Below, in pieces: positions 6,777 through 62,331 of a DNA stretch of 64,000 nucleotides (the first letter of the stretch is position 1; each line of letters opens with the position of its first letter). This DNA is from Ascidia mentula (taxonomy: Eukaryota > Chordata > Ascidiacea > Phlebobranchia > Ascidiidae). The stretch spans positions 9,855,001-9,919,000 of the forward strand of contig OX387197.1 of the NCBI GenBank assembly GCA_947561715.1, written 5' to 3'. The notes under the pieces are model-generated. The model was not told the DNA's origin. It did no database searches and saw only the letters and a list, made by a program, of their open reading frames with translations. The position numbers were made by a program, and so were the translations under genes.

Positions 6777-6801
6777 GTTCAACTACAACAAATATACGCT
6801 G

Positions 6802-7626: not shown

Positions 7627-7671
7627 CTGGATCGGAAACTTTTTCCCGACAAGTCGGAGCGAGATCTGAAA

Positions 7672-7743: not shown

Positions 7744-7863
7744 TTGCTGCAGCTTTAAAGTGCCCATACACATGCCACCACTGGGCCTAGCGGTGCGCAA
7801 GCATTCGTCAAGTTCGTCACGCTTCGCTTGCAATTGTCATTTTTGCGTTGCTTGTCATTTGCG

Positions 7864-34780: not shown

Positions 34781-37700
34781 TTATACAACGGTAAAGTTAA
34801 ATGAAGTCGCAGAAAACCACTTGTTTCCGCCGTGATATGCCAGATTTCCTCCTGCAACAAACAACATGCAAATAACAACACCCGCACAAATCGCAATGAA
34901 CAGGAGACATTAAATCTTTGAGTACATTGTAGATTTTTTCTCTATTAATTAAGTATTTTAATAAACAAACAAAGTGTCATATTGGCGCAGCCATTTTCGT
35001 TTTACTCACCGGTGATGTCGCCATGACAGAACAATGTGTGATATTTGCTATTGAGGAAATGAAAGCTCTCGGTGCCTGAACCGACCATGCGGTCGACACT
35101 GACAGGACGAGTAAAGGAACATCCTTGAACCCCGTTTGCCGCCGATGCCATCGCATTGCTTACTCCTGGCTAACAACAGAACAACATATGTGTGTGTTAT
35201 AGTTGCACACATAGAACAGAGCATAAAAAGCTATTTACTGGAAATTCTGTGTCCACAACAGGAGCGGTGTGTCCTAGAATTGTGCCCGACTTAAGACTTG
35301 TACCAGTGCAGTAATACAGCTCGGCATCCAACATAGCAGCCTGTGGAGCAAAGGCGATGCCAACATACGTGTCACCATTGCCGGTCCCTGGGCCTTCAAA
35401 TTCGACGTTGTAGGAGTTGCTGCTGGGATCCTACAAACACCAAATTACTATATTAGCAAGTGATGGATAATTTCGTACATTAGTGCTAATTCGAGTGACA
35501 TTGTTTTTTTCTTCCGCCGTTAAAACCATACGACTTTTCCCAATTTTACACAGGGCTAACAGCTATAATTTACTTACAAATGTGATAGCTATAGCGACGC
35601 AATCGCTACCGGCTGCTGGAGTGCAACCTGCCATGCTGGTGCCGCAGAACATTGTGCTCTCGTCACAACTAAAGGACGGTACAATTGGTGCAGGAGGAGG
35701 TGCAGGAAGTGGCGCAAATGTTATCGAAGTAAGCGATGCCCATCTCGAAGTTGCACTGTGTTGGTTTAACATGTTGCCTGTACACAATGTTCACAAAATG
35801 ATAATTGCGTGAAGTGAAATACCATTAAAAATGCCTGATTTCTAATTATACGGCGAAAGGAAAATCTTCTTACCAGCGTACGATCCAATAGCGTACAAAA
35901 CATAGAAAGGTGCAGACAGGTCAAAGGTTGTTGATACCCCGTTAATATCTTTAGTGATGCTGGCAGCGCGTGTAAATGAACAAGCAGTTACTCCATCGTT
36001 TACCTCGGTGTTGACGTTGGAAATTCCAGCCTAAACAGAAGGAAATTTAAATTATTATTAAATATTACGATCCCCTGTAATGTAATGTATATTAATGTAT
36101 TGGGAATCATTTTTGGAACCAGAGGTGTGGCGGGTCGATTTGGATGCGGCTAATACGTAAAATTCAGTATTGGGCGAATACGAATATGAACACCGTTTTC
36201 AAATATTGATGTGGGGAATCCAACATTCAATGTGCTTTTCATTATGTAAAAAAAACAACGCCTGGAATCGTGCATTTTCATTGAGGTTGCACGAAACAAA
36301 CCCTTAAAAAAACACTTTACCTTAAGTGAACAAATTGTTTAATTTCACCAAAACTTAAGGCTACGTCACACTATAAAATATTCAAGCCCAAATAAAATGG
36401 GATGTTATCGAAAACATTAGCACTGTTGACGTTTCGATAAGCGCGGTCAAAAAGTAAGTACTGGTTACGTACTGGTATCATAGCGTCGGTAACAGGAGTG
36501 GAATGAAGACTTCCAATAACTCCTGACTTCAACGACCCTCCCGCGCAGTAATAGAGGTCTGCATTTTGCATTGACGGTGTTGGAGCAAAAGCAATCGCGA
36601 CGTAATCGTCATTTTCATCTATTTCGGCACTGAAGGTGAAGTCGATCGAATTAGCGACAGAATCCTGCATAAAAGCAAACAAAGTTTCCAGTTTGTATTC
36701 TTTAGTGCACAAAGGTAAATTGATCCCGACTGATGTAACACTATAGCAAATGTTTCTTTCTCAAAAATGACTGTTGATTCTCTTTAAAAAAAGTGAAATA
36801 TTTTACATGCGCCCAGGATAGGAGAACACAGCCTTCGTCGTAGGGGTCGCATTCCTCTACGTTGCTGGTGCATTCTCTTGTTGTGCCACACTCATCTGTG
36901 ACTCCGGTCGAAGGAGGAGAAAGGAAGTTGATGGTGTTCTGAGAAACTCCACGGGACTCCACTGTGTGCTGCATGATCATCCCACCTTCAATCACAAGAG
37001 TTTAAACACCTTAGATATATTTTCGCCTGTTTAAACAAGAATTGACCACCGCCCATCGACACGCGATCAGAGGAAACCAAGGAGAAACGAAATAAACTGT
37101 TAGTATTTATTCGAAAAGAACGTACAAATGTTAGCACTACGTTGAGGTTTAAACCAGGTTGAAGTCTTCTGTATGTATATTAATGAAATTTGATAAATTT
37201 CCATTTTAAATTTATCTAATTTCACTACCATTGTTACATGTTATCGTACCAAATCAGAACATTGTTTATTTGCTTGGATTCCTCAAATAAAGCAACATTT
37301 CATTACCTGTGTACGGCCCGGTTGCATACAACAAATGGAAGGAAGTTGTCGAGAAGTTGAACGTCGTAGAAACTCCACTGATGTCTTTGCTGACGCTCAA
37401 TGGACGAGTGAAGGAGCATACAATAACTCCATCCTGACTTCCTACGCTCACCACCTGTACTCCAGTCTGCAAGGAAAACAGGTCGTGAGCTCAACTGAAG
37501 ACTGTTATGGAGATATTGTGAATAGAACCGGCCAAAGCACACATGCTGCACGATAGTTATGATGAGGTAATATTGGCCATTACCAGTTCTGAGTAAATAG
37601 CAATAGTTTCGGCAAGCCTTTCAAAAGAAACGTCGTTGCGGAACGAACCGTTTTTAACAGAGGAAACTATCGGTTTCTAAACTTCGGTTCGGTTTTCCTG

Positions 37701-40700
37701 TGTTATATTTTGGACAAAACCCAAACTGGTATTCAAACATGCTTTAAAAATGTTGCGTTTTGTGGCAAGATAAGGACTCCACTAACAGGCAGATTTGAGT
37801 CGGTTCTCGGTGTCATGTGCCGGCCTTCAATCGCGCCGGATTTGAATACTGAGTTGGTGCAGTAATAAAGATCGGCGTTTTCCATCAATGGTGAAGAACC
37901 GAACGCGATAGCGACGTACTCATCCCCGGAAGGTGAACCCCCAACGATGGTAAAATCCACAGTTTCGTCGGCTTCATTCTAAAAAAACACAAGTTGTCAC
38001 CCTGTTTCATCAGGGCGTTATTCGGCATCCTACGTATATCCACGACGTCAACATGCAACCGTCGGTCCCAGGGTCCTCGCATTGCGGCTTGTTTGTGGCG
38101 CAATTTCTCGTCGTTCCACATCCTTCGGCCAAAGACGGCGGTGGAGCCTCCACAAACTGGATTCCTGATGCCGTGGCCCATCGCCTGTCTGCGGCATGTG
38201 GTTGTATGTCGCCCCCTGCATGAAAATATGCAGGAAAAACTGCTTGTGATAATTAGGGAGATTTGACCAAAAACTTTATACATACGACTTTATTTTTGCT
38301 AAAAATTTGAGACAATATGCCCTTAATTTTGAGTGATTTTGTCATGACATTATCAGCTATCCAGTAGTGAATTAACGAACAATATAATTTTTAATATAGT
38401 CAGCATTTTTTTGCAAAATCGACTGCAAAAAAGATAAACGCAAAAGGAATGAAAACTTAAAGAAATATTAAAATATTCTCGACCCAGAATCTCAATCAGA
38501 CCAACAATAGAATATTTTATCGACCCAAGGGCCCGAATATATGCAAACAACCCGAAGTCGAACAAAATCTTCCCACTTTATGACTTTTGATGTAAAAAAT
38601 ATTTCATTGCCCAATGCATAAAAGTTTTTTTTAGTCACCAAGGAAAAAAAACCATATGATATTTGTGCGTGACAAAAGCATCCAACTTGGGGAAAAATAA
38701 GACTTCATTGACAACAAATGGCCCTCGCGTGATCATGGTTTGGCATGTTATGGTGGTTAACAGCAGATTTGAAATACATTACGCAGTTTCCACAAGGTCT
38801 CCTAATATCCCTAAAAAATATCCAATTACCTGAAAAGGTTCCTGTAGCGAACAACACGTAAAATGGTGAGGCTGAAAGATCAAATGTGGTCGGAGATCCG
38901 TTGATGTCTTTCATAATGGCGACTTCGCGTTTAAAGGAACAAACGTTGGCGCCGTTTTGTGATCCGGCGAACAAGTTTGTGATTCCATCCTGATAAAAAA
39001 TTAACCATTTTATTGTTTGTGAGTTTTTTCTTATTCTTCATTGATATATATTTTATGCTTTTTATGTGATTGGAATCTTTTTACTAATTTTCATTATTTT
39101 ATCACTATCTTGTCTTTTTTATTTAAAGAAGTTTCTATCGTCATTATTTTGCAGTATGATCAAACGTGAACATCACGCAAGGATGTAAATGTTACGTTTT
39201 TTGGAAAATTGGTACAGACAAGTGACGACAGAGAAATGTCGACTGGACAGCTTGCAGCATGCGCCCAAAGTTGCAAATCATTGCCTACCGGAATTGAAGC
39301 GTCGGTAACAGGTTGTGAATGGCGATTTCCAATTACTCCTGTCTTCAGCATTGTACCAGTACAATAATACAAGTCTGCGTTCTCCATAAGAGGCCCAGAT
39401 GCAAACGCTATAGCCACATATTCGTCACCGCTAGTGAGCATACCTCCACTGAAGGTGAAATCAATTGTCTGAGATTCCTCATCCTACAATCAAGTATTCA
39501 TCTAAGAAACCATGCTGGATCCAGAATGTTTTTGCAAGTAATTAAACAATATTCAAATGTGCATTGCTACGTGGTAAATGTTTGTTATACTCATTGTTAG
39601 GCTGCACAAGGTTTATGGTTATTGGTGTCACAGCCATTTATTTCTTACGGTTATTGCCAATCTGCGTAAACGTAATAACTTTTGCGCAAAAAAGTTTACA
39701 TATGTTTATAATTATCTCATCAATTATCCAAGAATACTGTTTTTGTTTACCCGCAACAAAGGCAAGTTTTATTATACTTACTAAAGCCCACTTTAAGAAG
39801 ACGCAGTTAGCGTCATAAGGATTGCAATCCGCAACATTTGAAGAGCAGTTTGTGGTTTCTTCATTGCAACCTTCATCAAGCGCAGGGGTTGGCGGAGTTG
39901 TAAAATCGAATGCATTTGCGGTTGCCCACCTTTCGTCGGGTTTGTGTTTCTGTGGGCTTGTCTCCCCTGATAAGCATATACTGTCATTAATCTTTCTTCT
40001 AACTTATTGAGAGAAATAATACAATTGGTCTTGGGGACACGTTGTGTTGGTGTATAGCTTACATCCTATGGTGATAGGAGTATTTCTTGACATTCTATGG
40101 TGATTTTTCTGACACAATGTCAGATGATAGGAGATTTGCTGCCCTTTACGTTTTGAAGAAATCGTCAAGACATAAACGCAGAAAACTAACCATAATTTGT
40201 CAGAAGATACAATCACCTGTTTGTGATCCCATTGCCATTAAGATGTGATACTGGTTTGCCGTTAGGTCAAAGGTCAAATCCGCACCGCCGTCGTTCGTCC
40301 GAACGATTGAAGCCTGTCTCTTGAATGAACAGCTCAGAACTCCGTCGTCCGACGAAGAACGATAATTATCTGCTGCGCTCTAAACGTCAGCAATAATTTA
40401 AGCAATTGCACAACAAACACGAGAAGTTTCATGTAACTCACTGGACAATTCAATTCGAGGACTGGTGACGCATGTCTGGCTCCGATTAAACCGCTTCTAA
40501 GTTCGTGGGCATTTGTTCCCTTCATGCAAACGTACGTATCGGAATTTTCCATTGTTCCTGTGGGGGAAAAGGCAAAAGCGACATACTCTCCCGACTCTGC
40601 CGGCCCGCTCACTTCGAAGTCATAGGTATCATCATCCGCGTTCTGTAACGGCCAGGTTACATTTTAGGTATTGTTACACTTCCGCATTTCAAAGATTTCA

Positions 40701-43700
40701 ATTTGGAATGCAATTTCCAACAGCTTTCGTTTAAACCCGTATGGATAAATACGTTGCTTTCGTTGGATAAAGTTTAATTTTAGATTTGTGCAAACTCAAA
40801 AGAAGGGTAAAATCAATGCTTATCATACAGATGGACAAATAAGCAACGTAAAAACAGGAATCTATCTTACGCGTTTCCACGATACAAGTAGACACTTGTC
40901 ATCGCCAAGCTCGCATCCTTCAACATTGTACACACACTGCTTTGTTACTCCGCACCCAGCGCTTGGCATCATGCTGCAAAAAGGTGATCAGCCATCAATA
41001 CTTACTAAAACCTAAATAATGCGCTGTGATATTCCAAAATAATAGGTTTTTAGTCAAAAAGCAAACTCAAAATTTGTGCGCGCACACCCTTTTGTGTAAA
41101 AAAATGTTTTTTTTTAAAGAAAACGACAAAAAATGTTTCATGTCGCATGAAAATCTTTAAAAAAAACACCCTCTTACTTCTTATCCGGCATGAAGCTTTT
41201 TGCATCCTCGGACGCCCACCTGTTCATCCCGTGGTATTGCGGTCTACCTAAAAACAACAACACATCACAGTCAAAAATAGATCTACTATGACTGCCGGTT
41301 TGACAAAAAAAATCTTAGTCTGCGGACATCTTACCGACGAAGAAAAACCCATGACAAAAAAGAACGTGGAACTTCGATGTCGATAAGTCGAATGTCTGCG
41401 ATATATCGTTGGCACCATCCTTCGCAACAACTTTGCAGACTTTAGCCGGCCTGGTAAACTTACACGTGGCTATACCGTTCACCAATGTGGCACTCAACAA
41501 AACTACTCCTTCCTGCAAAATAAATACACGTCAGTAACAACATTCTTTAGAATGGAAGCCGCGCATACTGACTGGCAATTGCGGGTCCATTGCGGGTGGA
41601 AAGTACTGATTCTGTATGGTTCCTGTAAGGAAATTGCTTCCAGTACAGACGTATAGGTCGGCGCGCCTCATCTGCTGACCCGACGAGAAGGCGATTGCGA
41701 CATACCGGGAGAGACCGAACATTTTTTCAGCTGGCCCGCTCATCACCATGTTATAGTTGGTCGCATTTTTGTCCTGAAAGCTTAGTCGTTATAGTTAGGT
41801 ATAAATATGCGCTAAAACGTCATAACTTCACTGAAGCCTGATTTGCCTGATTAAAACTTGCAATTTCTTTTGATTGACCGCAGTTGGGAAACTTTTCTTT
41901 GGGGTTAATTCAAAAAATATTGGCACAAATTTCATAACGTAATGTAAGCGCTCTATCGGGTTTTTAGGTTTCCACAGCCAAATTTCTTCAATAAGCAAAA
42001 ATTTCTCAAAAATGTAGGATTTCACTCACGTATGTCCAGGTAAGGGAAACGCAGTTTGGGTCACCAGTTTTGCAATCCGGTATGTTTGATATCGTGCCAC
42101 CAAGTTCCTCCTCTTCCTCAATATGATCATCATCATCATCATCGTCGTCGTCGTCGTCGTCGTCGTGATCTCCTTCTTCATCATCGTCGTCTTCACTATG
42201 AAATCAATGTAAAAAAAGCTTTACTATTTGTTATATTTGTTTTCCCTCTTTTGGAGAATTATTTGAAATTCCTTACAAGCTGTTGGTTTCGAGCGAAACA
42301 AATCTATTCGTCCCGTGGTACTGAATCACGCCGCCTGCAAAAAATCGACGCATTTAACATAAAACAAATATGTGGGAATTTTGTCTCCTCCACTCACCTA
42401 TGATGATTCCCCTGGCCAAAAGCACGTGGAAATCATTGTCTTCCAAATCAAACTCTTTCAACATGTTATTGCTGACTGTCTTGCTTACACTCTTTGCCCG
42501 AGTGAATGAACACCGTATTTCGCCGTCGACTATGCTCGCAACAGGATTGGTGATTTCGGACTTGATAAAAACGTTTAAAAGTTGAAATGAAAGCTATTTT
42601 CCAAAACTCCTTTTTTGAAGTCACGTTTTATGCATAAATTTTGTGTATAGATCGTGGAAAAAATGTACCGTTTAACGATAAGCGGCATGAAAGTATTAAA
42701 CAGGACAAAGCATCTTTGTACATTTTACCTCAATATAGTCACACGTTGGTAAATAATACTTAAAAATTGACCCAACATGAGCATATTTACCGGCAGGGAA
42801 GAGTCGATTACGGGAGGAAAGAAGCGCTGTTGAATGGCCCCGGACTTAACATTTACTCCATCGCAGTAATACAAGTCAGCGTCTTGCATCTGAGGTAGGA
42901 ATCCGAAAGCAACAGCGAGGTATTCGCTTGTATCTGTTGCATTTCCTTTTATTTCAACGTCAATTGTCTCCGCATCGTCATCCTTCAGTAAATACGTTTT
43001 TAGGTGCACGAGTACAAAATCAGGGTTTATGATACATGCGTCAAAAGTATGTAGAACGGGTAAAATAAGTGGAACAGCATGAAAAACAAATGTTGGTTTA
43101 TGTGAATGATTGCAGTGAAAGAGTTCCCAAACCCTTACGTGACCAAAGGAAATGGCATATAGTTCCAATAATTTCATATGTATAATTGTGCAACCGGCGC
43201 GTAAAACTTCGTAAACTATTGACATACAGACTCTGAAAATTGTGTAAAATAAACAAACGAATGGTGTTTTTGGTTTTGCGGGGCACTTGCTCACTGAGAA
43301 AGTTGCCGAGTCATTTCACGGCGCATAGCGACAAGCGTGTTATTACGGCAATTACTGGAAAAGGCTTTATGCGTTAAGTGGTAAAGCCGCTGGGAGCGAC
43401 TCCCCGCTGCTGAATAACCTGTAGCATGTCCCGCGGCGTTGTAATCACTACAGCTGATCTTTTTTTGACAAAAATAGGCAGCATTGGTTAACTCATATAA
43501 CGTCTTGTTTCTCTATTTTTTAAACCGTCATAAAAAACAGTTTTAGTTTTACGAATTTGAGCGAATTTGGTTTACCCGTGGATAAGAAGATTCTACGTAT
43601 ATACGTGGGGGGAGTTATTTTGTTTATTGTAACAAAAGCTAATAAATAAATGTATTCCTCTAACACACCACAGGAGTGTTTCCTTTATGTTTAATTACAT

Positions 43701-44736
43701 TTCAATATCATAAATTTTCAATGTAAGCAAAATTTCAGCGGCTGGTTGATAAAATACATACAAAACACTGTATAGTCAACTGCTTCGTGGTTTTTATCGT
43801 GCAGAAAACACCAGTCGAAAACGATTGGGAAGGGTCATTTGAGCTCGCCTTCTGACCCGGACATTATACGGTAGAAGGGCATGACTCACTGCCTTAAACG
43901 ACCTTTGGTAAAGTGTTACTGGCGTTTAATTAAATCTGCACGCAAAATGTCAGAACAAAGCACCTCAGGCAAAACGGGAATGTTTTTAGCCACGGAAACG
44001 CAATTTTACATTTGCTGACTGCATAGAATCATTTTTTGTTAATTTAGTGCGTAATGCAAAAACTCATATTATGCTGGATGCAAAGCATTCATAAGCAGCA
44101 ATTACAGTTATTATGTTAACTTAACAGAAAATCACTTCATGAGTAAATGAATAAATTAAATGGGACACTATTACGCACATTGCGTATTCTGATAGTTATT
44201 GCAAATTCTTCTTGTTTTTCTTAACTTTTGCCAAATTTAAGTTACTCTCATTTCGCCAGAAAACAATGCGAACTAAAACGGAACATTTTAATGCTCATCA
44301 ACTATTTGTGTTCCAACTTAGCACCACCCTTCTACCTACATGATGAGTTTTTTGGCTTCTGTCAAATACTGAGTTTCTTATGACCTGGTACATAAATTAA
44401 ATCTGGTAATTTTAGTGGGACAATACCTGTGTATTGCTTTGTCTACATTATTTTCAATTTAGGCGTTTGCTTATTTTTCGCTGAAATAAAAAAATTGCGT
44501 GATTATGTTTAAATGGCAAGCTTTGACTCCTAGCAACTTACGGTGGCTTTGAATAGATTTTGGTAAAAAATTCAAACTGTACTTACCCAGCTCAGAGATA
44601 CGGATACACATGTTGTCTGGTCCGGATCGCACTTTAAGGAAAAACAAAGCTTGTCATCCCCGCATTCATCGGAGTGCGAACTGACTGCGCTAATCCACAA
44701 CAACAACACACAAACGAAAGTAGAAACTGAAGCCAT
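34781..44736 (-). CDS. Secreted protein with seven DOMON modules
   Basis: Twenty-four exons on the minus strand, 1,289 residues: 44736-44587, 42982-42791, 42560-42398, 42334-42277, 42195-42030, 41773-41573, 41512-41335, 41247-41178, 40973-40871, 40642-40442, 40379-40217, 39966-39782, 39483-39289, 38989-38830, 38215-38034, 37978-37787, 37466-37307, 36985-36807, 36664-36473, 36030-35874, 35777-35578, 35430-35239, 35169-35010, 34851-34781. Exon 1 encodes a signal peptide, then a four-Cys motif ending in Trp. Each module is a four-Cys linker, an exon of about 192 bp with YVAIAF and MxxxDLYYC, and an exon of about 160 bp with CSFTR and a FDL-FHVLLA strand, completed by an invariant His at the start of the next exon. 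No membrane span or GPI signal is evident. DOMON domains bind heme or sugars; a heme electron-transfer role is inferred from the Met/His pair. It is paralogous to the FRRS1-like gene at 51236. Confidence 0.9.
42126..42164 (-). repeat. Poly-aspartate tract in the first DOMON linker
   Basis: Thirteen consecutive Asp codons (six GAT, seven GAC) in the linker exon 42195-42030, followed by a Glu-rich run. This linker has lost the first two of the four Cys that all other linkers carry and has gained the acidic tract instead. Plausible cation-binding or spacer segment. Confidence 0.9.
42983..44586 (-). other. Long first intron of the seven-DOMON gene
   Basis: 1.6-kb stretch between the signal-peptide exon and the first DOMON exon. 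No exon, repeat or RNA recognised. It is the longest intron of the gene and a likely place for enhancers. Confidence 0.5.
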
Positions 44737-45789
44737 TTTGTTTTGCTTGTGTCCTATGCAAAAGGCTGCCAGGACTGCTGGTATAGCTTTACCGACTTTC
44801 ACAATTGAACATGCCGACGTAAAAAGTCATACAGCTTGGCGTTAATTATTGCCTGCAGCAAAATCTGTAGCAGAGAGTGCAGTCAAAAGCAGTTATGACA
44901 CCGATAGGTTTGAAAGTACAATGGTAGCTTATACGCAACTGTGTTGTATCGGCCAAATGTTACAGTTAATTTACTTGAATAATTAAGGTAGCTGTTGTTC
45001 AAACAAACAAACAAACAACCAAATAAACCCACTCCTCTGTTTATTCAGTTGCGTACAAAACATGATTCTCTTGATGTTTTGTATACATTGCAGAACGACA
45101 CCATTGTGGAAAACACCATGACAAATTAAAACAGACAATAAGCGTTTTGTCGGTGTCTGCGCAATTCCAGTTTTCATTCAGGTTTTGTTTACTCACGTGC
45201 TTTTACCGGTCGAAAATTAGTACCCGCCGCTAATCATCACAGTAAGTGGTTTTCGGTTCTTCATTTCCGTAAGAGTTTTCCATTACTCTTGATATTGTTC
45301 GTTGGCGTTTCCCACAGCGGAAAAACTACAACAGAATAACTCCCTAGTGTTGTTTCGTTTGCCAGAAGCTTTTAGTTTTGCAAAAACAGTTACGAACTGA
45401 CCTGTTCGTGCAAAGCTTTCAAAAAACGTGTACTATAAAGCAAGCTCACCATTAAAAAGAACTTTAATCGTCAGATTTTAAGGATTTCTACTTTTAGTCG
45501 CATTTTGTTTTGTGTCCAACCTCTGGAGTCATCTGTACCGTTGTTGTATTTCTGTGTAAACGTCAGTGAACAAAAATATAAGGCGTGGTATGCAGCAATG
45601 TTACGCGTTGTCATGCATATGCCCAATGTACTTCTCTATTATAGCAGGTGTGATAACGGTTCCCCGAGGCTTGTTGCAACAAACAAAAGCTAAGTGGTGT
45701 CTTTCTCTCCCGACATCAACAAATACTTCGTTTTTTACTTCACACAAATGATGTAACAAAGTGAATTGAAATCCGTGAATACAGACGTT
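44737..45789. promoter_or_regulatory. Region upstream of the seven-DOMON gene
   Basis: About 1 kb from the seven-DOMON start codon (minus) to the left edge of the tandem ParB-like units. It should hold the promoter of the DOMON gene. No conserved element recognised and no coding exon supported. Confidence 0.45.
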
Positions 45790-46116
45790 GGAAGATACAA
45801 AGGCTATAAAAGTAAACTTGCGTCCTCCATTCGGGAACCTGCCGGTGATCGCATGCAAAAACTTGTCGTCTCTCATTCTGAATCTATAAATACGTTTAAC
45901 ACTATTAACCGTAAAGCACAAAAATGATGTTTGAGTGGACATTCGTCATCTAAATCACATGATGTCACTCAGTATGCAATGTTACTGCGTCAATAGGTGG
46001 GTGTAAGTTCTATGCGTACATGCAACGTCGGTGCTGGATCCAGTTCTGCTTGGTAGTGGCAAATAGTTAAGATTAAGTGCTAAGCGTTAAACAGTAGCAA
46101 AAAAACTCGTGAAAAT

Positions 46117-46673
46117 ATGTATTTAAAGCCTTCTGAGATTCGATTCATGCAAAACAGTATTCACCACAGATTTTGGGGCAACATTGACGTAAATGGCACG
46201 ATAGACGATATCGCTGCCGGTTTGAAAAGTGTCGACAGCCTTGAGCCTATTAGAGTAACTAAGCACAATGGAAAGTATTACAGCTTGGATAACCGACGAC
46301 TCTACGTGTTTCGGGTTTTGGAAAAACGTGGACACCTGAAATACATTGACGTAAAATATACTCCTTCTTGGGATGACAGCAAGTTTACAACCGAAAACGA
46401 TGGCTACTCAATCTACGTTCGCGGTGGAAATACTCGCGTCCACACTTTTAACACTCTGAAGCAGTCAACTAGTTGTAGAATGTAATGCAGATCTTATATG
46501 CGTTTTAAAATTTTTGCTATTTTAGGAACGCTGATATGATGGATACTATTGCTATTGACATTCAAGAAATGGACAGGAGCGAAACACAAGATTTACCATC
46601 CGGGCTTACTTCTTACGACAGGGACGTTGAAACTCTATACAATGCCCAATGGTGCAACTGCGCTATTTTATAG
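46117..46673 (+). CDS. ParB/sulfiredoxin-like domain protein, copy 1
   Basis: Exon 46117-46481, a 44-nt intron, then 46526-46673; 170 residues if spliced so, or 122 residues if read through to the TAA at 46483. The N-terminal 115 residues resemble the ParB/Srx fold: LKPSEIRFMQNSIHHRF, a helix, then LEPIRVTKHNGKYYSLDNRR followed by LYVFRVLEKRG. DNRRLYVFR occupies the place of the ParB box GxRR. This fold includes chromosome-partition CTPases, nucleases and sulfiredoxin, so the activity is open; the Srx Cys is absent. The short acidic tail ends in CNCAIL, a possible prenylation-like CaaX end (CAIL). Upstream TATAAATA near 45886 may be the promoter. The deletions that shortened its intron make correct splicing doubtful. 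Confidence 0.7.
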
Positions 46674-46822
46674 AGTGTATTTTGTTAAATAGGCCACAAC
46701 ATTCACATGATGAGACCCAAAATTTCTGCAGGGATTTACTTCGTTTCAAATCCGAATAGGCTACATTGCTCGAAGTCATAGTATTTTTCCCCGTTTTTAA
46801 AGTTCAATTTTTGCTATTTTAG

Positions 46823-46970
46823 GAACGCTGATATGATGGATACTATTGCTATTAACATTGAAGAAATGGACAAGAGAGAAACACAAGATTTAACATCTAG
46901 GCCTATTTCTTACGACAGAGTCGCTGAAACGCCATCCAATACCCCATATTGCAACTGCGCTATTTTATAG
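46823..46970 (+). repeat. Extra copy of exon 2 in unit 1
   Basis: 148 bp, the same length as the exon at 46526-46673 and open in the same phase to a TAG, with an AG acceptor at 46821-46822. The duplicated block spans about 46508-46715 and 46805-47012, offset 297 bp. The tail again ends CNCAIL. It could act as an alternative last exon. Confidence 0.75.
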
Positions 46971-48047
46971 AGTGTATTTTGTTAAATAGGCCACAATATT
47001 CACATGATGAAACCTAATTTAAAATAATTTCTGAAAGTGTAAAAAAGCGACAGTGTAGCCTAAACAGGAAAGGCTCTATGCATGCGTAGCATATATATCT
47101 GTTTTGTTTGCTATAAATGATATTATCCAGCACACATCGTTTGAGTTTTTCTAGTGCAAAGTTTCTCAAAGACTGTGTCACGAATGTTTCACTAATTAAG
47201 ACTAACTTTTAAAGTTTTTTCACCTTTGTCGTGTAAAATTGAAGAGAATAATGTTATATATAAGAGCTTCTGTGTTAGCACTGCAATTATTGGTGTAATC
47301 GTCTCTTTCCTTCATGACATTTACGAAAAAACTGTGGAGTTAAGGGTAATTGCTTCGCATCATAGCCTATGCTGTTGTGTGTATATACATGCCTTGAATT
47401 AAACTGACTCATACGTGATGTCTACTGCTTGTGGCGTTGTTTCAACATTTAAAATTAAAATGATTGTGACGCAATCTGATCCAGAGGATCGAAGTGTGCG
47501 TTCCGAAAAATGTAAGAACCCTATTCCGATGCCCAAATGGATTGTAGGCCTAGCCTATATTTTAGGAAAAATAGTTAACAGGTATTGTTTTGTTTTTTAT
47601 TATGCCGCAGTTGCTTTTCGGTTGAATATGGCTTGCATGCATGAGAACAAAACCTATACAACCTACATCAATCTTTACTTTTTGCAAAATTTCTGCAGGG
47701 ATTTATTTGGTTTCAGGTCCAGGCTACATTGCTCGATGTCATAGTGCGAAAAAATCCTTTACACTTTTCAAAAAATGCTGAAAATTATTTTGCAAGTTTG
47801 ATACAACAACCTAGTTTCAATGGCTAGATTGGCAGCATCATTGGTGACACCAGAAACTATTCTTAGCAGTCTCTGGTGGCACCAAAGGTCCCAAATTTGC
47901 CGAAGTCACAGCAGCAACTCATATACCAGTTGTGACGTAATAGTGCAGTGAAGCGGAACCTCAAATTATAAAAACCGGTCGCACCAGCTGTGCGAGTGAC
48001 TATTTGGTGAAGGGGTGGCTGGGTTGACAACTTAGCTAATGTTAGCT
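46971..48047. other. Downstream part of unit 1
   Basis: Matches 49554-50646 in unit 2 almost base for base. No further coding exon can be supported: the open frame at 47415-47744 is broken by shifts in the other copy, which argues against coding. It should carry the 3' UTR of copy 1 and the region upstream of unit 2. Confidence 0.6.
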
Positions 48048-50646: not shown

Positions 50647-51235
50647 GTGGGCTGTTCTATACTGTAGATGTTCTTTTTTAAGCAAAATAATTTGTCGCTG
50701 TAAACGGATATTTTGAGTCAAGCGTCTTCTGTGAATTATTCATGTGTTTACAAGAAATACACTAACAATGTGACGTGTATATCCATGGGCATTTTCTTGT
50801 CAGGTCTGGTGCAGAAGTGCAACAACTGCTGAATGTATTTCAGAGTTAGTTATAATTGTAAATCTATGTTTTTAGACAAGTTACTTGGTGTTACCTTGTT
50901 ATAGGTAATTACATTTTTTAAATTGCGATTTTAAACAATTTACAAACATATGACATTATTACTTTGGCAGAATAATAGTGAAACTATTGGCTTTTGTGTT
51001 TCATCTGACTGTAAAACTTAGTTAAGCGAGGTAGGCCTACTTTTTTGATATTGTTTGGCAACTATTTGCCTTAATTTTATATGCATGTATATATATTTAT
51101 ATGTATATGTACATTATTCTTGCTGTAAATTTGGTCAAATGTGTTTTACACTGTCTATGGACTTGATCATTTTATGATGCTATTTTTCCAGTTTTGCAGG
51201 TGATTGTTATAAGTGTTGGCCATACTGCGAATGAT
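50647..51235. promoter_or_regulatory. Region upstream of the FRRS1-like gene
   Basis: 589 bp between the ParB-like duplication and the start codon. TTTTCCAGTTTTGCAG at 51184-51199 is a strong splice acceptor 36 nt before the ATG with no coding exon upstream, suggesting a 5' UTR intron or a trans-splice site. No other element recognised. Confidence 0.5.
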
Positions 51236-54200
51236 ATGATAGCCCCTGTCTGGGTTACTGTTTTGGCTTTGTTGCAAGCTGTTTGTGGTTTGGACACAGC
51301 AGGATGTGGTTCTTCCAAAAACTGTGTACGGCAGCCCACTGCCTGCTCACAAACTGACCCTGCGTGCTTATTCTTCTCTTATGTTTGGGTACGTTTGTTA
51401 TTATGAATATTTATCACCGTTTTGGTGCTACACAGAAAGTTTGCTACAACTACACTTATTGACAAAAGAACCCATGTGATGTTCTATTGATATTGATTAC
51501 ATATGATCTTCAAATAATTTCGAAATATTATTTTATATTTATAATTTTTGTGCTGTTTGACTGTGTTTATAATAATGTTTGATCTGTCAAACAATTTGTC
51601 ATATTTTTTGTACAAACATGCAGGGACGCGAAAAAATTGGTAAAGAATTTGAAATGCATATTCATTTGGAGAAAAGGGTTTTCCCAAGTTTTTATCTAAG
51701 CTTCAACAAAGAAACTTTTGCCATATACAATGAGTTAGCAATTTTCCGTCTTTCCATATCCTGCTAACCATAAACGCTACAATTCTCGCTCCACCGGTAA
51801 CCAGGGCAAAATTCTCATCACGATTGTAATGTCATGGAGACGCATTTAGACTGGCACGCCCTCTCCTTACGTTGGATTCCGCGGCCGTGGAGCTGCGTCG
51901 ATGACTTGCATTTCCCTGAAAATCTTGACGAAGGTTTAAGCGACCTTGATTATCCTGAAACAATGGCGGTATTGACATTCCCCATAAGTGGGCAGTTTTG
52001 ACGCGAGTTGAACAGAAACGCACATCCACTACTTTCAAAGTCACAAATGTTTGTATATGTACCATTAGTCCACCAGTTAAGTGCTCATTGGACATCGGTA
52101 TGTCGCTGAAAGCTAATATCTCCACTAGGTTTAAGCCACTCCCGTAAACAACATCATAACATGATGTTACAAAAATTATCTTATCAGTGCGGTAAACCTG
52201 CAGTGCTTCGTTGTGTAATCAAAGAGTAGCGCAGCATCACCGCCCTGCAATATTTCTGCGCGAAGCAAAGTTACTTCACCGGTCAGTTGGAATGGCATTT
52301 CTCCGATTATTGCAGTCATCCCCTTTCGTAACCAACAGCCAACATGTTGACTGTTCGTTAAAATGTAAAAAAGCATAACGTTTAACATGGTTGATTTTCT
52401 TTCCTCCAGGACTCGACCAACAGTCGTTTTAACATGGAGTTGTCTGGTGGTGCTGGTAATGGGGCCAGCTACGTGGCCGTTGCGTTCTCTTCAAGCGGAA
52501 ACATGCAAGATTCCGAACTATATTACTGCTCTGGGAGCTCCTTTCAATCAGGCGTCATTCAGGCCCGATACAATCCACCGGTGATAGACTCAACTCTGCA
52601 GGTAAATCGTTTGTGTTTTGTGGGTTTATGTCATAAGCTAAAGGGAATGCATTACTCGTCAATTGACCAATTCAAGTTTTCATTGTTTTTAAAAGACTTT
52701 GTGTTGGTTTCTTTTTGTTAATTGCTAGAAAACTAAAAAGTCTAAACAACATTTGTAACATGTTTTTAAGGAACAATTTCCAACATTTAATGCATATTGC
52801 TATCTGAATTACACCGAACACATTGGTTGTAATATGCATACTGTGAGCATACATTTGTGCAAACGGCAAGAGCGGTTTTGATCGTATCCGCCATGCCGTC
52901 CGCCCATTAATCAACCTCCCCTCTTTTATCATCTACTTTGTACAGAGTGGTGTGTCAAGCACGTCTGCATCCACTGTAGGCGGTGTTGCCGAGTGTGTTT
53001 TCACGAGGCCGGACATAGTGAACAAAACCATCTCAGGATCGACAGTGCAATCTTTCAATCTGCTCACCACGCAGTACAGAATCCTCCTTGCTACCAGCAC
53101 CATAAGCTCGGGTAAGACGCCTCGTTTGTATGTATTGTAGCATGACCAAACTGTAAGGATTGTTTGGGAGTTTTTTATTAATATTTTTTAATACCTTAAT
53201 AAGCAATGTAGAGCCAATAATGTTTTAGTGATCTGCAGACTGCTGTTTTAGTGATGTTTCGACCTATATTATTGTCTCACCAGTGTAGCTTTGCCAATTA
53301 TACGGCGATCATTTCGACTGTATAGTCACCACAAAGTGGGAAGACTCGTTTGGCTATTTAATACCTATGTTCAATAGCTTTATTAAATATATAGACATGC
53401 ACGAAAGTATTTTCAAGCCAACAACGTATCTTGCTGGTCCTTCAAATTGGAAAACACACGCTGACGTTTATCTACTACCAATATTCCATATCTACTTCCA
53501 ATAAACCACATGATTACATGCCTTTCGTAACAGGTACGCTTGAACGGCACACACCTGCAAACAGATATTCCATAGGCCCCTTCGACTTCACCGTCGACCC
53601 TGCGGCAACAACCACGACGCCAACGTAAGTACACTTAATCACATAGTTATTAACTTAAACCTCTACTTACATGCATTCCGCCAGTGCTATATTTCGTATC
53701 TTATTGTAAGAATCCCTTCGCGTAACACTATGGGTGAAGTTGTCAAAAAACCTATCTACACTCTGATGTAAAGATGAATGCGTTGCACTGACACAGCCTA
53801 AAAACATTTCGTGGGAAAAAATACAAAACAACCGCCATTAAGCAAAACTGCTATACTGCGCTTTCATATGACGTCAGCTAAACTAGGTTTTGAAGTACGC
53901 AATGACCAAGCAAGAATTTTACCTGTCACCAGAATAGCAACAAATAGAGTGTTTTTTTTTAAGAATTCAATTCAATTTATTTTCGTCATTATCCACAACA
54001 TGAAAACTTCGCTAAGGTAAAAACGATAAATCTAACAGATTGGATAGTGACGAGGGACCTGTAAATACCGCAATTGGTTGTCTGAAACCGACCCTCGATT
54101 GTGGTGATATTACAAAAACATTTTATTTGTTGCCTGTTTTACTGATTACAGAAAAGAAAAATGACAATTATTTTGCATTTAAGGAAGCAAAAAGAAATGT

Positions 54201-57200
54201 GGCAATAACTCGTTTTTTTACAGCGCATAATATCGTCAAATACAGTAATTAAGAATTAAGGACTTCAAGTAGCATTGGCCTACGTAGCTTCGCGCATGCC
54301 TGCTGCTGCTGTCATACTTACATATTTCTCTTTTCAGAACCACCACTACCACCACTACCACAACTGTGACAAGCTCAACAAACTTTGCTGATGGATGCGC
54401 CGAAACGAAAACGTGCTTGACCGTTCCAGATGGATGCTCACCCGGGACATCCACGTGCATGTTCGCCTCGTGGATATTCGTGAGTTTCATGATTTTGGAT
54501 CGTTTATAATCGACCGCTTGAAATTTCCCTTCACCTGCAGTAATCATTTTTTTTCACGTAAATGCTCTCTTGGTTTTCAGTTACATGTATAATTAACTGC
54601 AGTAGTGCCTAAATGCTGTCTTCGCAACCAGTGGGCTTGAATAAACACACAATTTTGCCCAAAGGCATCAGGGAAAAATTAAGAAAATGGCTAAGAAAGT
54701 CTGGTTTCATGATCTATTCGGACGAAAGGCTATTTTTGTTTTGCTGCAGTGTTTTTTTTTGTCGAAATCGATTTTAAAAGTGAATAACTTTATAGTGACC
54801 TTCTGTTGTTGTGTCGTGCGTGCCACAGGATGGCAAAAACGTGAGTAAGATTGGAGTCTCAAGTGAGCGCAAAACAACTTGGCATCCACGGGGTCACATT
54901 CCCGGTGCCGAGTTCATTCCTTCGCCTTCCATCATTATTCAGATTCGAAAAGTTATGCGACCACACTCTCCGATCGCTCGCACGACATCGCTCTTTACGC
55001 GTTAACAGATAAACTCGGGACGCGCCGTCGGGAGGTCGCGATGCGGAAGTTTATTTTCTGCATCTCACGCCATCCCGTGCGGATGACGTTTCATGTCGGA
55101 TTCGCGCGATACGCTCGATCTGCCCTGTAAATTATGTACAGCCCGCGTTCTGCACGCGAGCGTTTGGTTCTTTTGTTCCGGTTGTTTGTTTGTGGCCTGG
55201 GGCGCGCACGCGAACTCCAAAAAGTTGGGTGTGGCGGTTAAACGCCACATGACCACGACAACACCAACGTGGCTTTCCAAGAAGGGTACGGTGTTCCCCC
55301 CAATACGTAGGGCTAGGGATGATGCATATAGATGCGGTTGCTGTAATGCCATAATGTGATGTATGTTTGTCTGGATAGCGTGGGAGTTTCCTCGCATGTT
55401 GACCATACTCGCATGCAAAGCACATTTTCTCGTTGTACTCTATTGAAGCAATATACAGTATAGTGTTTTGCGCTGTGTATAACATGTGCATTGCCCTACA
55501 AGTAGAAACTAAACGTATCAAACGATGGAATCCACCGCATTTATGATTAAATATCTTTTTTGCACAGGTACCGGTCACCAACACCTTTAACTTCCAGTTG
55601 GTAGGTGCAGGCACGGACCAGTACGTGGCAATCGCATTTTCTGACGATCAGGAAATGCAAGATGACGACTTGTACTATTGCACTTCAAGTAGTGTCGTGT
55701 CAGGAGCAATCCAGGCTTCCGAATCACCGCCTACACCGCTCAGCTCCAACACGGTACCACGATTGTGCACGATCATTTCAGTTTCAGTTCTGGAGTTCGA
55801 ATAGCGTTCATGTGATGCCAGAAGTGGCGATATGACTGACTCCATAGTGTGTGGACTACACACGTTATCCGTTATTCGTTACGATTTGCGTACATTTTAC
55901 GGCGTTATTTGTGAAATTATAAGAAATTAAATTTTGTCATATAAGGCGAGAATACCCTTTAGGGCAATCTCATCACCAACTCTCATTGCGTGTAGATCGG
56001 AATCGCCAATGCTAATGGCGGCGTGGACGGCGGTGTGTTGAGCTGCACCTTCACCAGGGATGCCAGCGTTACCAAACAGGTTTCAGGCGGTTCTAACAAG
56101 GTGTTCGACTTCTCATCTGGCCGTTTTTACGTGCTAATGGCGCGAGGTCCCTTCAGTGGAGGTACCAATTCACACATTTACAAGACACGCCTTTTCTGAA
56201 CCGTTTTTGTTCGGTCTTAAAGGAAGTATCAGCTACCACTTAAGCAACAGAGGTTTCTCAGCCTCCGCGCAAAACTTCACCGCTCCTCCATCTAACGTCG
56301 GTGGCTCGGGATCTTCCTCACACAAACGGAACATGGTGAAAGCCCACGCGTAAGTTACCAATCAATTCTGACTAAGAGATGGCAAGTGTTGATGCCGGGC
56401 TGAGTTAAGGTCGTCTAGATATCATCTAGGCTTGGTTAAATTGGAATGGTAAATTATTGGAATTTATATGTTGCATTATATTTTTACCTCATAAAAGGTG
56501 CATTATCTGTTAACACGATCGTAGGTAGTTTATAGCATATAGATGTGGAAATTCCTTGCGTAAATTCGCCAACCTATGTTTAAGGTTTAGGTCGCAACAA
56601 TACTGGCTGCAAAAAAAACAGGTTTAGGCTCGTAAACACTTAAGTGTAGTTAATGAGTAACATCACTTAAAACTGCACATAATGCGCTGTACTAGGTTGC
56701 TGATTTAAGCTACACATTTACGATAAAAAAAACGTAATGACAGATGCCCATTGCTTTGGTTGTCGTTTAAAGGGGCATACGTAGTTGGAACGCAAGCAGG
56801 TTGAATGTGTTGCGGTTTTTCGACTTGAAACTAGAACCACACCGCAAATAATAGAAGACCATGGGGACCTTACCGCCGATCATATTCTTGTTCACAGCTG
56901 GAAAATTACAGCAGTGGACATTCACAATCTCGCATAAAAACTCACGACCCGCGCTGTTTTTGATCCTATAACGACGCTAATGCGTCACCGTTGCCATTCC
57001 TTTGTAAACGATAACGGGAGATACGGGCAATCATAACTGCATAGAACCGCACGTAACCCGCCATTCGCCTCCACAAACAATGGACAGCGTCCCGTGTTTA
57101 CCTTGGATACCGCGCCGACCTTTCAGAAGCAAACCATTGATTATTTCCATTGTTACAAAGACTGCCTTTCAACATTTGGTCCGCATTCGAGCTTTGAAAA

Positions 57201-60200
57201 TAAGCGGCGAGTTGAAAGTGGGGCTCGTTTTTGTCTTCGTGGTTATAAATTACAAGACTAAGACGCGTAGTTTGATTCCTACGAACCTTCCAAAAAGAAC
57301 ATTTGCAAATAAATAAACGTTTATGTTTACCAGATCACTGATGATCATTGCTTGGCTTACTTGTGCCAGTATCGGAGTTCTCATCGCTCGCCATTTCAAA
57401 CCACTCTGGCACAACAACGACTGTTGTGGCAAGCAAGTCTGGTTTCAGGTGCGCTAGTTGTTGTATAATGGTCCACAATCCGCTAGATTTCTGATTTGTA
57501 TCACAACAATGTCGCTATTAATATAGGACTTGTTCTTTTGGCACTAGGTTACGAAAGTGTTTATTGTAACTAACGTTAACGTTATGATTCAAGCTTTATG
57601 CATGCACAAAACGTGTTGAAAGGGGCAAAGGACGAGTACAGTACATGTTTCAATTTCTGTATCAAAAAATGATTAACCAGTTCAATGTAATAGTACTGAT
57701 GATGAACCCAGTATGAGTTCGAAACGTTTACTTAGAATATGATCAACAGCATCCTAGCTTTGGCTTTCCTTTTCAAAACAAATCATTAGGTTTCACTATG
57801 TACAGTACATTTGAGGGCCAAGTAGCGCACTCTAACTCTATATAGGCGAATCTTATCTTTGTGTGATTTGCGCGGACAATTATGCTGCATATAACTGACA
57901 GCATCCGATCACTGACGCAATGACTGATGTGACCTTTCATCACACTATCAGTGGTTGTACCTTGCGGTTGTGACAAGTCGATTTCCTTTGTAACTTCACG
58001 TAACTTCATACAATTGGAGCTACGTGGATCGGGTTACAAGCGTGGCAAACGCATGTCCTTCCCGGCGTAGTTTATTGGACGCAGACGTACCTGGCACGAT
58101 ACTGTCACATGTTGACAACAAACACACAGGATGTGATGTATTTAAAATACATTTTATTTGTCCGTCGTTGGATACTCATTCATAGGAATCTTGATAAGGC
58201 ACCGATAACACACCAATTTGAATAGTACCAACACAAAATCAACAGCAAGTTTCAATTGTTCTAATTTTGGCAGCTCACGTATTGTACATCTTATCCATTT
58301 TTACCGCGGACTTTTGCAGTAGACATTTCCTCCAAAACGAAACGCAATTCACGGGATTTTGTGTGCGCAAACTTTTCAAAATGAAATGCACTTTGAAATG
58401 AATATTTTGCAGATACACCGCGCCTTGATGATCACTGCGGTCGTTGCCACCTTGCTCGGATTCATCCTGATCTTCTCCAGCGTGGAAGGCTACAGCGGGG
58501 TGAGTGTTGAGGTTTCCCGCGTTGTAACGGCGATGAGTGAGCAATTGTTTATACAAAGCATCCGCGTAAACATTAACACCGCGCGTGTGTTCGTTGGCTT
58601 TATTTACTCACCAACGCTCATGTCGGACAAAGTGCAGATTTAACCAGTTTATTACGCTGTAGGGAATGCGTGGTGTCAGCCCGCACTCAGACACAGATAA
58701 AATGGTGCTTAAGTTATTTTACAGCAATTCTATTTTATCGCAAAAAAGGAGCAAAAATATTGTGTGGCATCTTTTATGAAATACGAATTGTCAAAATATA
58801 GAAATTCGAGTCTTTGTGACAAGCATATCTTCTATTCGAAAATCCGCATTGCATTTTTCTATTTTTATTTGACTCGTAATTACGTACAGCATGCCGGCGC
58901 CCACCCGATCATCGGTATCATAGTCACCATCCTGGCAATAACCAATCCAATTATGGCAATATTCCGTCCCCATCCTGGAACTCCGAAACGCTGGATATTC
59001 AACTGGGGTCATTGGTTCGTCGGATCCGCTGCCCGTATTTTGGGCATTACAGCCATTTTCCTGGGTAAGTAGTCCGGGCGCTGTTGCCATATCCTGTTAC
59101 TAAGACCGTTGTTATGCTTGTTTTTAAGGTTTGACTTTTATTTATTTAAGGGGTGGCTCATGGAAAAGTGTAAGACTTTTTGTGTTGATTCTGTGCGATA
59201 TAGCACAATGAATTTATATGGTTATATAAGGTTTACAATACCATTTGTTTGCGTTTCAACCGTGGATGTTATTATATATAACTGGGAGATAGCTACCCCA
59301 GACGAACACTTCTGTTGAAAGCGTGCATGTCACTAATTCCTATCTTCCAGCAGCGTGTACTCGATTGACATTTAGCCACAAGAACGGATGAATCCGGTTG
59401 TGGCCACGTTTGACAAGATAGCCATTCAAGGAAATAGGATACCACACAGTTACGCACTCACAGTGCTTACCACCTACGCTTACGTAATTCCTCTCAAAAC
59501 AGTGGAACGGCCAAACAGAGCCGCCACCTTATCGCCCTCGTTTTAACTCGCTTATTTCCACAAGTCACTCTGACAATGGTCTCCCGACAGGGCGGGTCTC
59601 TCACAGCGCTTACTTAGCACGTGATGCGCACAATGATTTTGCAGTTTAGGTGATAAATTGCGCTTTGTTTGTGTTCAGGGGTGGACCTGACTTCGTTGGA
59701 TTTGCCTGAATGGGACACCTGGGTGTTGGTTGGATTCGTCTGTTTCCATGTCGTTTTCGAAATCATCCTGGAGATTTTGTCTGCAGTTTATGGGCATATT
59801 AGCGGTGGGTTTCTGTTACTATTACTATACTGCAGCAACTACCTTGAAATGTTCCAACGATAAATATCATAGCTTATGCTGCTATCAAATGACCTAGCCA
59901 TAATGACTTTCTAACAAACACACCAGTGTTTATGATATGTGGAAAGCTAATAACCACATACGCCAATAATTGGTAAACTTGTTTTCCGCGTGTTGATTTA
60001 TATACAGTTTCCCATGTAATCTTTTTGAACGTTTCTGCAACAATGATCATGTTGCGCCATGCGGTGAATTTGAAAGGCATTTCGGAAGCCGTTTTCTAAG
60101 TTTCCTCGTTCCGCAAACTTACCAACAATCCACGAAGTTCGCGCTACGCTGCGCATCGAACGACACTGGATTTATTCCAGCGATCCGCTTGACCTAAAAT

Positions 60201-62331
60201 AACAGACTTTCCACTGAAATCTCCGCAGTAAGTTGATGCTGTGACGTCACCTGTTTGGTTTGCAGGTTACAAGAAAAAGAAGCCAACGAATGACGTTTCT
60301 ATGGACGACAAGGCTGAGGAGGACAAGCCGCCCAGGGTAAGAGCGGATAAAACGGCTCATGTCGGTTTTAATAGGAAACCACTGAGAAGCTATTTCTTAC
60401 TCTAGTTCAGTGATTTTCAACCTGTGTTCCGCGGAACACAAATGTTCCGTAAAAGATCTTCAGGTGTTCCGGAAGAAATTGATTAGTTTGACTAATGTTC
60501 CGTGGAACACGGGTCGGAAATCATTCTTTTTTATCACAAAGGGCGTAAATAGCTTTATGAAAGTAATCATCCACTAACACCAGTTTGAATGTTCCATCGT
60601 GAATTGCTTCATTTATTGTTGTGTAACAATTATGTTTGTTTTGTAATGATAAGAATGTAATTGCACGAGCCTGTTGCTGGTTAAGTACAATGCCGCAGTA
60701 CTTCCAACAATTTAGTGTTCCGCAAGATTATTTTGATAGAAAAAGTGTTCCGTGGCTCAAAAATGTTAAAAAATACTGCTCTAGTTGACCAAAGTTTAAC
60801 CGATAAGATCAAAGATTAGAACTAAAACACGAACCAAATTTATCAATTTACTTTGGGACTGTTCTCTTTGCTGGCTGGAATTGAGCCAAGGTCTCTATAA
60901 TTCGGTGATTCGTGCACTGCTACATGTTTATATTATATCAAGTTACCAGTGGATGTGACGCTAAAGTGAAAAACAATTTAATGACACGCATACCGGTAGC
61001 CACTATTGAAGGATGATTTGGTAACGAATTTTCCGCATGTGTATGATTTTTATATGAATCAAGCTATTTGTACCGTTGCACATTTCTACATACATTCATC
61101 TGACATTCGCTATGCATAATATTTACCTCCTTGTCGTCATATTTTGACAACGGAACGGTGTCATATGACTACAGTGTCGTCACAAGTCGCCTGCGCAGTG
61201 CACAAACATAAACCTTTACACGGAAATCAAATGCTCTTCTTTTCGTCATGTAATGGCACCTCTCTAAGATCCTTATGACTTATCACGAAATGCGTCGTTC
61301 GTCCGCTACCGCTTAAAGTTGGTCGTCCAGCGGAGTCTAGTTGCTGTTTAGTTTAAAAATGCTTCCGGCAATTTTTCGGTGGTTTGTTATGTGGTTATAA
61401 CCATAATTTATTCTCCCGCCAGAAGCAATCGAAAGTAGCGCAAAATTACATTTTATGTTAAAGGGGTGAGCCAGTTTAGAACCAAAAATGGTTGTCGTAT
61501 ATTCCATAAACTTTATCACCACTTGAAAAAACAAAAATAGTGTAAAAAAAAATGACATGGAAATACCACTGGTGTTGACATTGCGTCGCATAAATCGCAA
61601 TGTCACGTTGCACAATATAATGCCACCGAAATTTTCTTACCGCGACCAAACAAACGTTTTCGAGGCCAGCTATCGATTAAACATCTTTCAAAACGTTCTC
61701 TTGTTCTGAATCCACTGCTTTAAGAAACCCTTCCCAGCAACGTACATAAACTTGTTTGCTTTCATTGTATTCAAGCGTCCATATGTCTCCTTCGGGCTAT
61801 TTCATCATTTCTTGCTTGGACGGATTTTTTGCAAGTCGATTACCCGCTCTTTCGCTGCGCGGCGTCTCGCAGCTATCCGAACAAAAGTAACATTTTGCTT
61901 GAATTTTCAGGCGACTGATTACCATTTTATGTGGAAAACATAACAATCAGTTAGCCACTTGCCACGGCGTGTAACAATGTACTCGAACACTTATAATAAG
62001 GGTGCTGCTATCAATATATCCGAAAAATACTGCCGAGGCGCAGGGATTATTGTTGTCATAATAAGAAAAATATAGCTGAAATTCAAGCCTCAGATGGGTT
62101 TAGTTTCATACTGAAATAGCGTCATGAGAATTCTTTTTTTTACCTCCATGTTGTTCACGTAATGCCCTTTTTATAGTTCACATCACTATATAAGGCAAAG
62201 TGCAACCAAGCAATAATATTACATGTTCTGAACAGGGTGTTGGCATCAAGTACTTCGTTCTGGTCGTCTACTCCCTTGGAAACATCGCCTTTGCACTCAC
62301 GTTTCTAGCTACCATCGGGCAAATGGACTAG
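51236..62331 (+). CDS. FRRS1: FRRS1-like ferric-chelate reductase: two DOMON modules plus cytochrome b561
   Basis: Fourteen exons, 630 residues: 51236-51388, 52410-52601, 52946-53111, 53534-53624, 54338-54479, 55568-55753, 55996-56161, 56223-56349, 57334-57448, 58413-58499, 58890-59064, 59679-59804, 60266-60336, 62236-62331. Order: signal peptide (MIAPVWVTVLALLQAVCG), four-Cys motif, DOMON 1 (52-201), Thr-rich linker with a second four-Cys motif, DOMON 2 (249-405), then six membrane helices. The b561 part matches FRRS1: LMIIAWLTCASIGVLIARHF, a following helix starting IHRALM, HAGAHP, FNWGHWFVG, VCFHVVFEI. Candidate heme His are 448, 480, 516 and 557. Such proteins pass electrons across a membrane to reduce ferric iron. 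Unlike vertebrate FRRS1 there is no reeler domain, and there are two DOMONs. A Lys/Asp-rich cytosolic loop precedes the last helix. ATTAAA at 62511 may be the poly(A) signal. Confidence 0.92.
60400..60786. mobile_element. hAT-type non-autonomous element (MITE) with 8-bp target duplication
   Basis: Element 60408-60778 (371 bp) lies between two copies of CTCTAGTT at 60400-60407 and 60779-60786. The left end begins CAGTGATTTTCAACCTG; the right end, read on the minus strand, begins CAGTATTTTTTAACATTTTTG. The CAGTG...TCAACC terminus and an 8-bp duplication are hallmarks of the hAT superfamily. Inside are several GTGTTCCG/CGGAACAC subterminal motifs in both orientations. There is no transposase frame. 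It sits in the last intron of the FRRS1-like gene. Confidence 0.9.

Follow-up and report, generated by a model that had tools for sequence, protein, structure and literature searches.

A predicted secreted seven-DOMON protein beside a DOMON-cytochrome b561 gene in the ascidian Ascidia mentula: a possible extracellular multi-heme electron-transfer pair

The stretch analyzed here, referred to as the window, comprises 64,000 nucleotides of the sea squirt Ascidia mentula (GenBank assembly GCA_947561715.1, contig OX387197.1, positions 9,855,001 to 9,919,000 of the forward strand), and positions within it are counted from its first letter. It contains two neighboring genes built from DOMON modules: gene S, which is predicted to encode a secreted chain of seven modules, and gene R, which is predicted to encode a membrane protein with two DOMONs and a cytochrome b561 domain. 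A third gene, T, found further along the same contig, combines both architectures in one protein. All modules of the three genes keep a methionine and a histidine that are candidate heme ligands. In our view, the best explanation is that S and R are both members of a single family of animal heme modules of the CYBDOM type, and we assign the scheme as a whole a probability of roughly 0.45. The initial annotation of the window had proposed seven minus-strand and two plus-strand DOMON modules in divergent genes; our gene models reproduce this arrangement, with coding ends located exactly at 34781 and 62331.

Gene S (34781..44736, minus strand) was modeled by hand from the raw sequence and consists of 24 coding exons that encode 1289 residues. 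In this splice model, all 23 introns are of the GT...AG type with matching phases, and the reading frame is open throughout. The product starts with a signal peptide, continues with seven units that each comprise a cysteine-rich linker and a DOMON, and ends with a stop codon directly after the last module. In agreement, Pfam assigns the DOMON family (PF03351) to seven stretches of the protein (E 2.1e-88). Exon 1 (44587..44736) encodes the signal peptide and the first cysteine-rich linker, and is followed on the same strand by modules S1 (42277..42982, with exons 42982-42791, 42560-42398, and 42334-42277; methionine in MQDADLYYC, histidine in QYHG), S2 (41178..41773; MRRADLYVC, QYHG), S3 (39782..40973; MENSDTYVC, QKHK), S4 (38034..39483; MENADLYYC, QPHA), S5 (36807..37978; MENADLYYC, MQHT), S6 (35578..36664; MQNADLYYC, NQHS), and S7 with the stop codon (34781..35430; MLDAELYYC, AYHG). 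The last exon of each of the modules S3 to S6 also carries the linker of the module that follows, and the linkers of S span 83-103 residues when measured from the histidine to the next methionine. Poly-A hexamers are found 227 and 347 bases after the stop codon. An unusual acidic run, in which 26 of 30 residues are aspartate or glutamate, sits between S1 and S2 and shares its exon (42030..42195) with the S2 linker. Part of this run is encoded by a GAC trinucleotide repeat of 8.3 copies (window 42142-42166), the length of which may vary among individuals.

In a hydropathy scan of the S product, residues 1-22 form the only stretch above the threshold, and the same scan detects no hydrophobic tail at the C-terminus, where the chain ends after the last module. 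Because the signal stretch is not accompanied by any further hydrophobic stretch, the product of S can be read as soluble and secreted, which agrees with the secretion of the minus-strand product proposed in the initial annotation.

Gene R (51236..62331, plus strand), likewise modeled by hand, comprises 14 exons and encodes 630 residues; all 13 introns are of the GT...AG type with matching phases, and the frame is free of stops. The first part of the gene (51236..53624) encodes the signal peptide, a linker, and module R1 (MQDSELYYC, ERHT), while the second (54338..56349) encodes a threonine-rich linker and module R2 (MQDDDLYYC, SYHL), which adjoins the membrane domain. The cytochrome b561 domain itself (57334..62331) features four candidate heme histidines, H407, H448, H480, and H516, with the codon of H407 lying in the preceding exon (56223-56349). 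These residues, as well as their counterparts in T, were assigned by their spacing relative to the positions given for CRR and CG8399. Pfam recognizes two DOMONs in the R product (E 1.7e-21, 77.2 bits against a cut-off of 32.7) and a Cytochrom_B561 domain (E 1.2e-6, 29.2 bits against a cut-off of 23), so that the DOMON-b561 membrane protein that had been proposed as the neighbor of S is recovered. A hydropathy scan detects the signal stretch and six further hydrophobic stretches when overlaps are merged. R thus appears to sit in the membrane, with both DOMONs on the outside, and, judged by its domains, is a CYBDOM protein without a reeler. Poly-A hexamers also follow R. The coding parts of S and R are divergent and lie 6.5 kb apart, and the possibility that they form one split gene was ruled out by their opposite strands and by the stop codon and poly-A hexamers that S has of its own. 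Solved structures searched with the b561 domain of R returned eight matches, seven to endoglucanase H and one to a fusion containing it (best E 0.087), which we attribute to chance.

Searching the genome with a single module of S and with the b561 part of R revealed a second locus on the same contig, gene T (C1:10036706-10048977), which starts 117.7 kb past the window end and 119.4 kb past the end of R. Our model of T has 32 exons, with GT-AG at every intron, and encodes 1688 residues. The predicted product contains a signal peptide, seven DOMONs, and a b561 domain in a single chain; Pfam supports both the seven DOMONs (E 1.8e-73, 245 bits against a cut-off of 32.7) and Cytochrom_B561 (E 3.4e-5, 24.5 bits against a cut-off of 23), and the candidate b561 histidines are H1463, H1504, H1536, and H1572. 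Since T joins seven DOMONs and b561 in one protein, it suggests that DOMON chains are coupled to b561, and this fusion is the best evidence in hand, albeit indirect, that links seven-DOMON chains to b561 electron transfer. A protein search of the genome with the b561 domain of R found the R and T loci and no other. The Cytochrom_B561 Pfam profile gave nine genomic matches, with the b561 exons of R and of T not among them; absence from that search therefore means little.

Comparing the modules of the three genes, we found that one methionine and one histidine are present in all nine modules of S and R, including both of R, and in seven of seven modules of T, that is, in 16 of 16 (Met-His spacing 91-98 residues). 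For the nine modules of the window, this conservation had already been noted in the initial annotation, and all nine histidine contexts that it listed are found in the gene models. Its consensus around the methionine, M-x-x-[AS]-[DE]-x-Y-x-C, holds in eight of the nine modules and fails in R2, which reads MQDDDLYYC. The modules are otherwise divergent: pairwise identity ranges from 26 to 67% (mean 36%), which rules out an assembly artefact, and only 16 of 175 core columns are invariant over the 16 modules. The putative ligands are the only invariant methionine and the only invariant histidine in this alignment, and the probability that two columns named beforehand are both invariant is about 0.008 if columns are exchangeable. 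In T4 and T6, the most alike module pair, non-synonymous divergence (dN) is 0.23 and synonymous divergence (dS) 0.71, a sign of purifying selection at the sequence level; synonymous sites are saturated in all three within-S module pairs examined. The CxxCH motif of multiheme c-type cytochromes is absent from S, R, and T. By analogy with published relatives, we consider it probable that most modules bind heme, and that this heme is of the b type. The earlier classification of the modules as heme-type DOMONs is likewise backed by the Met/His pair in every module together with the reports on animal and plant CYBDOM proteins discussed below.

The spacing of the two putative ligands is close to that in CYBDOM relatives (84-93 residues), for which the published positions are Met286/His379 in fly CG8399 (93 apart), Met89/His180 in Arabidopsis CRR (91 apart), and M90/H174 in HYP1 (84 apart). 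With the animal CYBDOM ferric reductases, such as human FRRS1/SDR2 and fly CG8399, R and T share the DOMON Met/His pair and the b561 core; however, these reductases have one DOMON, whereas R and T have two and seven, respectively, and no reeler by Pfam, and S has neither b561 nor reeler. In fact, Pfam scans of S, R, and T detected no Reeler domain. The genome contains at least 19 Reeler matches, none of them within 2 Mb of a listed DOMON match on the same contig, with both genome-wide match lists being lower bounds. Two DOMONs were described as uncommon in an insect survey, where they were found in 19 of 888 CYBDOM matches, and its main text contains neither the phrase "three DOMON" nor "more than two".

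The plant CYBDOM proteins HYP1 and CRR resemble R and T in combining an extracellular DOMON that carries the Met/His pair with b561, but in both of them a single DOMON is joined to b561 within one polypeptide, whereas the seven modules of S make up a chain of their own. The HYP1 paper notes, without giving details, that some plant members have more than one DOMON. S also shares features with AIR12, a DOMON heme protein without b561 that is reported to be reduced by ascorbate: both have a signal peptide, a DOMON with Met/His, and no b561. Yet AIR12 is described as a single DOMON with a glycosylphosphatidylinositol (GPI) anchor, unlike S with its seven DOMONs and no hydrophobic tail. A further reference point is the cytochrome domain of the fungal enzyme cellobiose dehydrogenase, in which Met/His-ligated heme b is reported in a DOMON-type fold. 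Among solved structures, the profile of our nine S and R modules gave no sequence match to this domain. In cellobiose dehydrogenase, it is a single such domain within a flavocytochrome.

Based on these comparisons, we propose that R would act as a plasma-membrane reductase. Cytosolic ascorbate, the donor suggested by published relatives, would supply electrons to the two b hemes of the b561 domain, from which they could move on first to the b heme of R2, the module nearest the membrane, then to R1, and finally to acceptors outside the cell. S would consist of seven linked heme-b DOMONs released from the cell, and its most likely role is that of a soluble carrier or buffer for several electrons, which R or T may charge and which may then reduce ferric, cupric, or vanadium complexes or other oxidants outside the cell. 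For the plant relatives HYP1 and CRR, ascorbate-dependent electron export or iron reduction has been reported. HYP1, with one DOMON and b561, is described as moving electrons through the plasma membrane in an ascorbate-dependent current and as a reductase of ferric and cupric substrates. Its authors propose that three b hemes act in series, and in their model the irons of the DOMON heme and of the nearer b561 heme are ~20.9 A apart. Following the same logic, R would hold four hemes (two in b561 and two in DOMONs), T nine, and S seven. The CRR authors suggest that the DOMON extends the reach of b561 to more distant acceptors. That S works in electron transfer with b561 partners is, in our estimate, just short of an even chance. 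In its most complete version, the scheme has a secreted chain with seven hemes receive its electrons from membrane reductases that carry two or seven heme DOMONs and then reduce metals, including vanadium, away from the cell surface. Such a system would be unlike any that we found described in animals, and with all its parts taken together it appears quite improbable.

Several observations and reports weigh against this interpretation. Eight other DOMON loci in the genome (L001-L008), searched on both strands, contain a similar methionine exon in all eight cases and a similar histidine motif in five, while the stretches were only ~3 kb each and L004, L007, and L008 gave no histidine under the pattern used. 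Methionine exons were also found at L005, L029, L031, L032, and L033, some of these loci being identical or overlapping. We take genes of the L001-L008 type to resemble monooxygenases of the DBH/MOXD1 type. Thus, the Met/His pair is ruled out as a mark unique to the modules of S, R, and T; since other DOMON loci carry it, it marks many DOMONs and proves neither heme nor electron transfer. A search of solved structures with the nine-module profile yielded no credible match, its sole match, a T-cell receptor (E 0.85), being dismissed as chance. The tie between S and R comes down to adjacency and module kinship, and ten of 13 inner branches of the module tree are drawn open. The linkers of T are long and rich in threonine and proline (102-147 residues from the histidine to the next methionine), which favors contact between tethered modules through collision over a rigid heme wire. 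In the published work, DOMONs without heme are known, for example in dopamine beta-hydroxylase (DBH); the DOMON ligand mutants of HYP1 were mislocalized, which placed the role of the DOMON heme beyond test; and in a coral study, DOMON proteins are grouped with those of matrix and adhesion.

These points bear differently on three other explanations. S might lie beside R through local duplication of modules only, and serve T, another reductase, or none. The module tree is consistent with such a history in that its forks, R1 with T1 (94/85), S1 with T5 (81/82), and T4 with T6 (100/99), mix modules of the three genes, and so are the divergent orientation of S and R and the other duplicated sequence within the 6.5 kb between them; the open inner branches, however, leave the module history undecided. 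We regard this explanation as a tentative one that merits serious attention, and our estimate for it is not exclusive of the scheme above, as it is compatible with a carrier role for S.

The remaining two explanations give S a different function, and both seem unlikely to us. As a secreted multi-heme scavenger or store of heme or iron, active in defense or nutrition, S would offer up to seven heme sites per chain, a product with no hydrophobic stretch past the signal, and an acidic run that could bind metal ions. Yet the literature on CYBDOM proteins discusses Met/His DOMON hemes as carriers of electrons and reports that ascorbate can reduce AIR12, and in T modules of this kind are attached to b561. 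Alternatively, S could be an adhesive or scaffolding extracellular protein, the redox function of which was lost or never present. Monooxygenase-like DOMONs, which may or may not bind heme, also carry a Met/His pair; this would fit such a role, as would the reported existence of DOMONs that bind sugar or neither ligand and the coral classification; in that coral study, DOMON-domain membrane proteins were raised after settlement, with no mention of several DOMONs per chain in the text available. Sugar-binding DOMONs and DBH, however, are reported to be without the methionine and histidine, as opposed to the 16 of 16 modules that have them here.

Two further DOMON loci deserve mention. L024 (G000:C71:19554392-19558200) features three near-identical tandem DOMON units at a spacing of 1378-1379 bases, with threonine/proline-rich sequence between them, and its last unit is followed by a threonine-rich stretch and a hydrophobic tail resembling a GPI-anchor signal; it possibly encodes a GPI-anchored multi-DOMON protein. 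A single DOMON unit related to those of L024 is found at L025 (G000:C67:2562171-2564100).

Between S and R, window positions 45789-50647 contain a duplicated stretch with a copy spacing of 2.26-2.60 kb, in which seven of eight repeat families are 88-97% identical. Each copy carries an intronless open reading frame (ORF; 46084-46485 and 48360-48818, with 133 and 152 codons from stop to stop). This ORF has at least 31 matches in the genome, many of them clustered on contigs C67 and C72, and matches no Pfam or NCBIfam family above the cut-off. Elsewhere in the window, exons on the minus strand (4252-11510; motifs such as PPGPRG and PFSVGPR) presumably belong to two tandem cytochrome P450 genes, a minus-strand ORF ending in a RING finger (28073-28738) appears to resemble PEX10, and a plus-strand ORF (30043-30414) appears to resemble a THAP domain.

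The genome also provides a context for the possible substrates. The vanabin family (PF11437) has 12 matches above the cut-off on one contig (G000:C70:4225689-4256185), 11 of them on the minus strand, which together form a large array. In view of these vanabin-family genes, the candidate substrates include vanadium in addition to iron and copper. Vanabins are reported to reduce V(V) to V(IV), and the same literature calls protein-level knowledge of vanadium accumulation and reduction limited. Two genomic matches to glycosyl hydrolase family 6 (GH6) were also found, a family that, according to a Ciona paper, reached Ciona by horizontal transfer. Together, the GH6 and vanabin matches fit a vanadium-handling ascidian. 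Among the open-access literature matches listed, no paper connects vanadium or ascidians with b561 or with DOMON proteins.

Bacteria are well known for extracellular multiheme electron carriers; the open-access matches listed include none from an animal. For multiple or tandem DOMONs, they contain the insect CYBDOM survey alone and nothing closer. Relatives of S that are known only from protein databases may well exist, and we rate S as a variant of the known CYBDOM/DOMON heme kind that is not previously described in these matches. The seven-DOMON b561 protein T and the free seven-DOMON chain S make the idea of a longer reach, put forward by the CRR authors, directly testable. Should S hold seven hemes and be supplied with electrons by b561, animals would have a long-reach route for the reduction of extracellular metals. 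In sea squirts that handle vanadium, S, R, and T are specific candidates for proteins that reduce metals.

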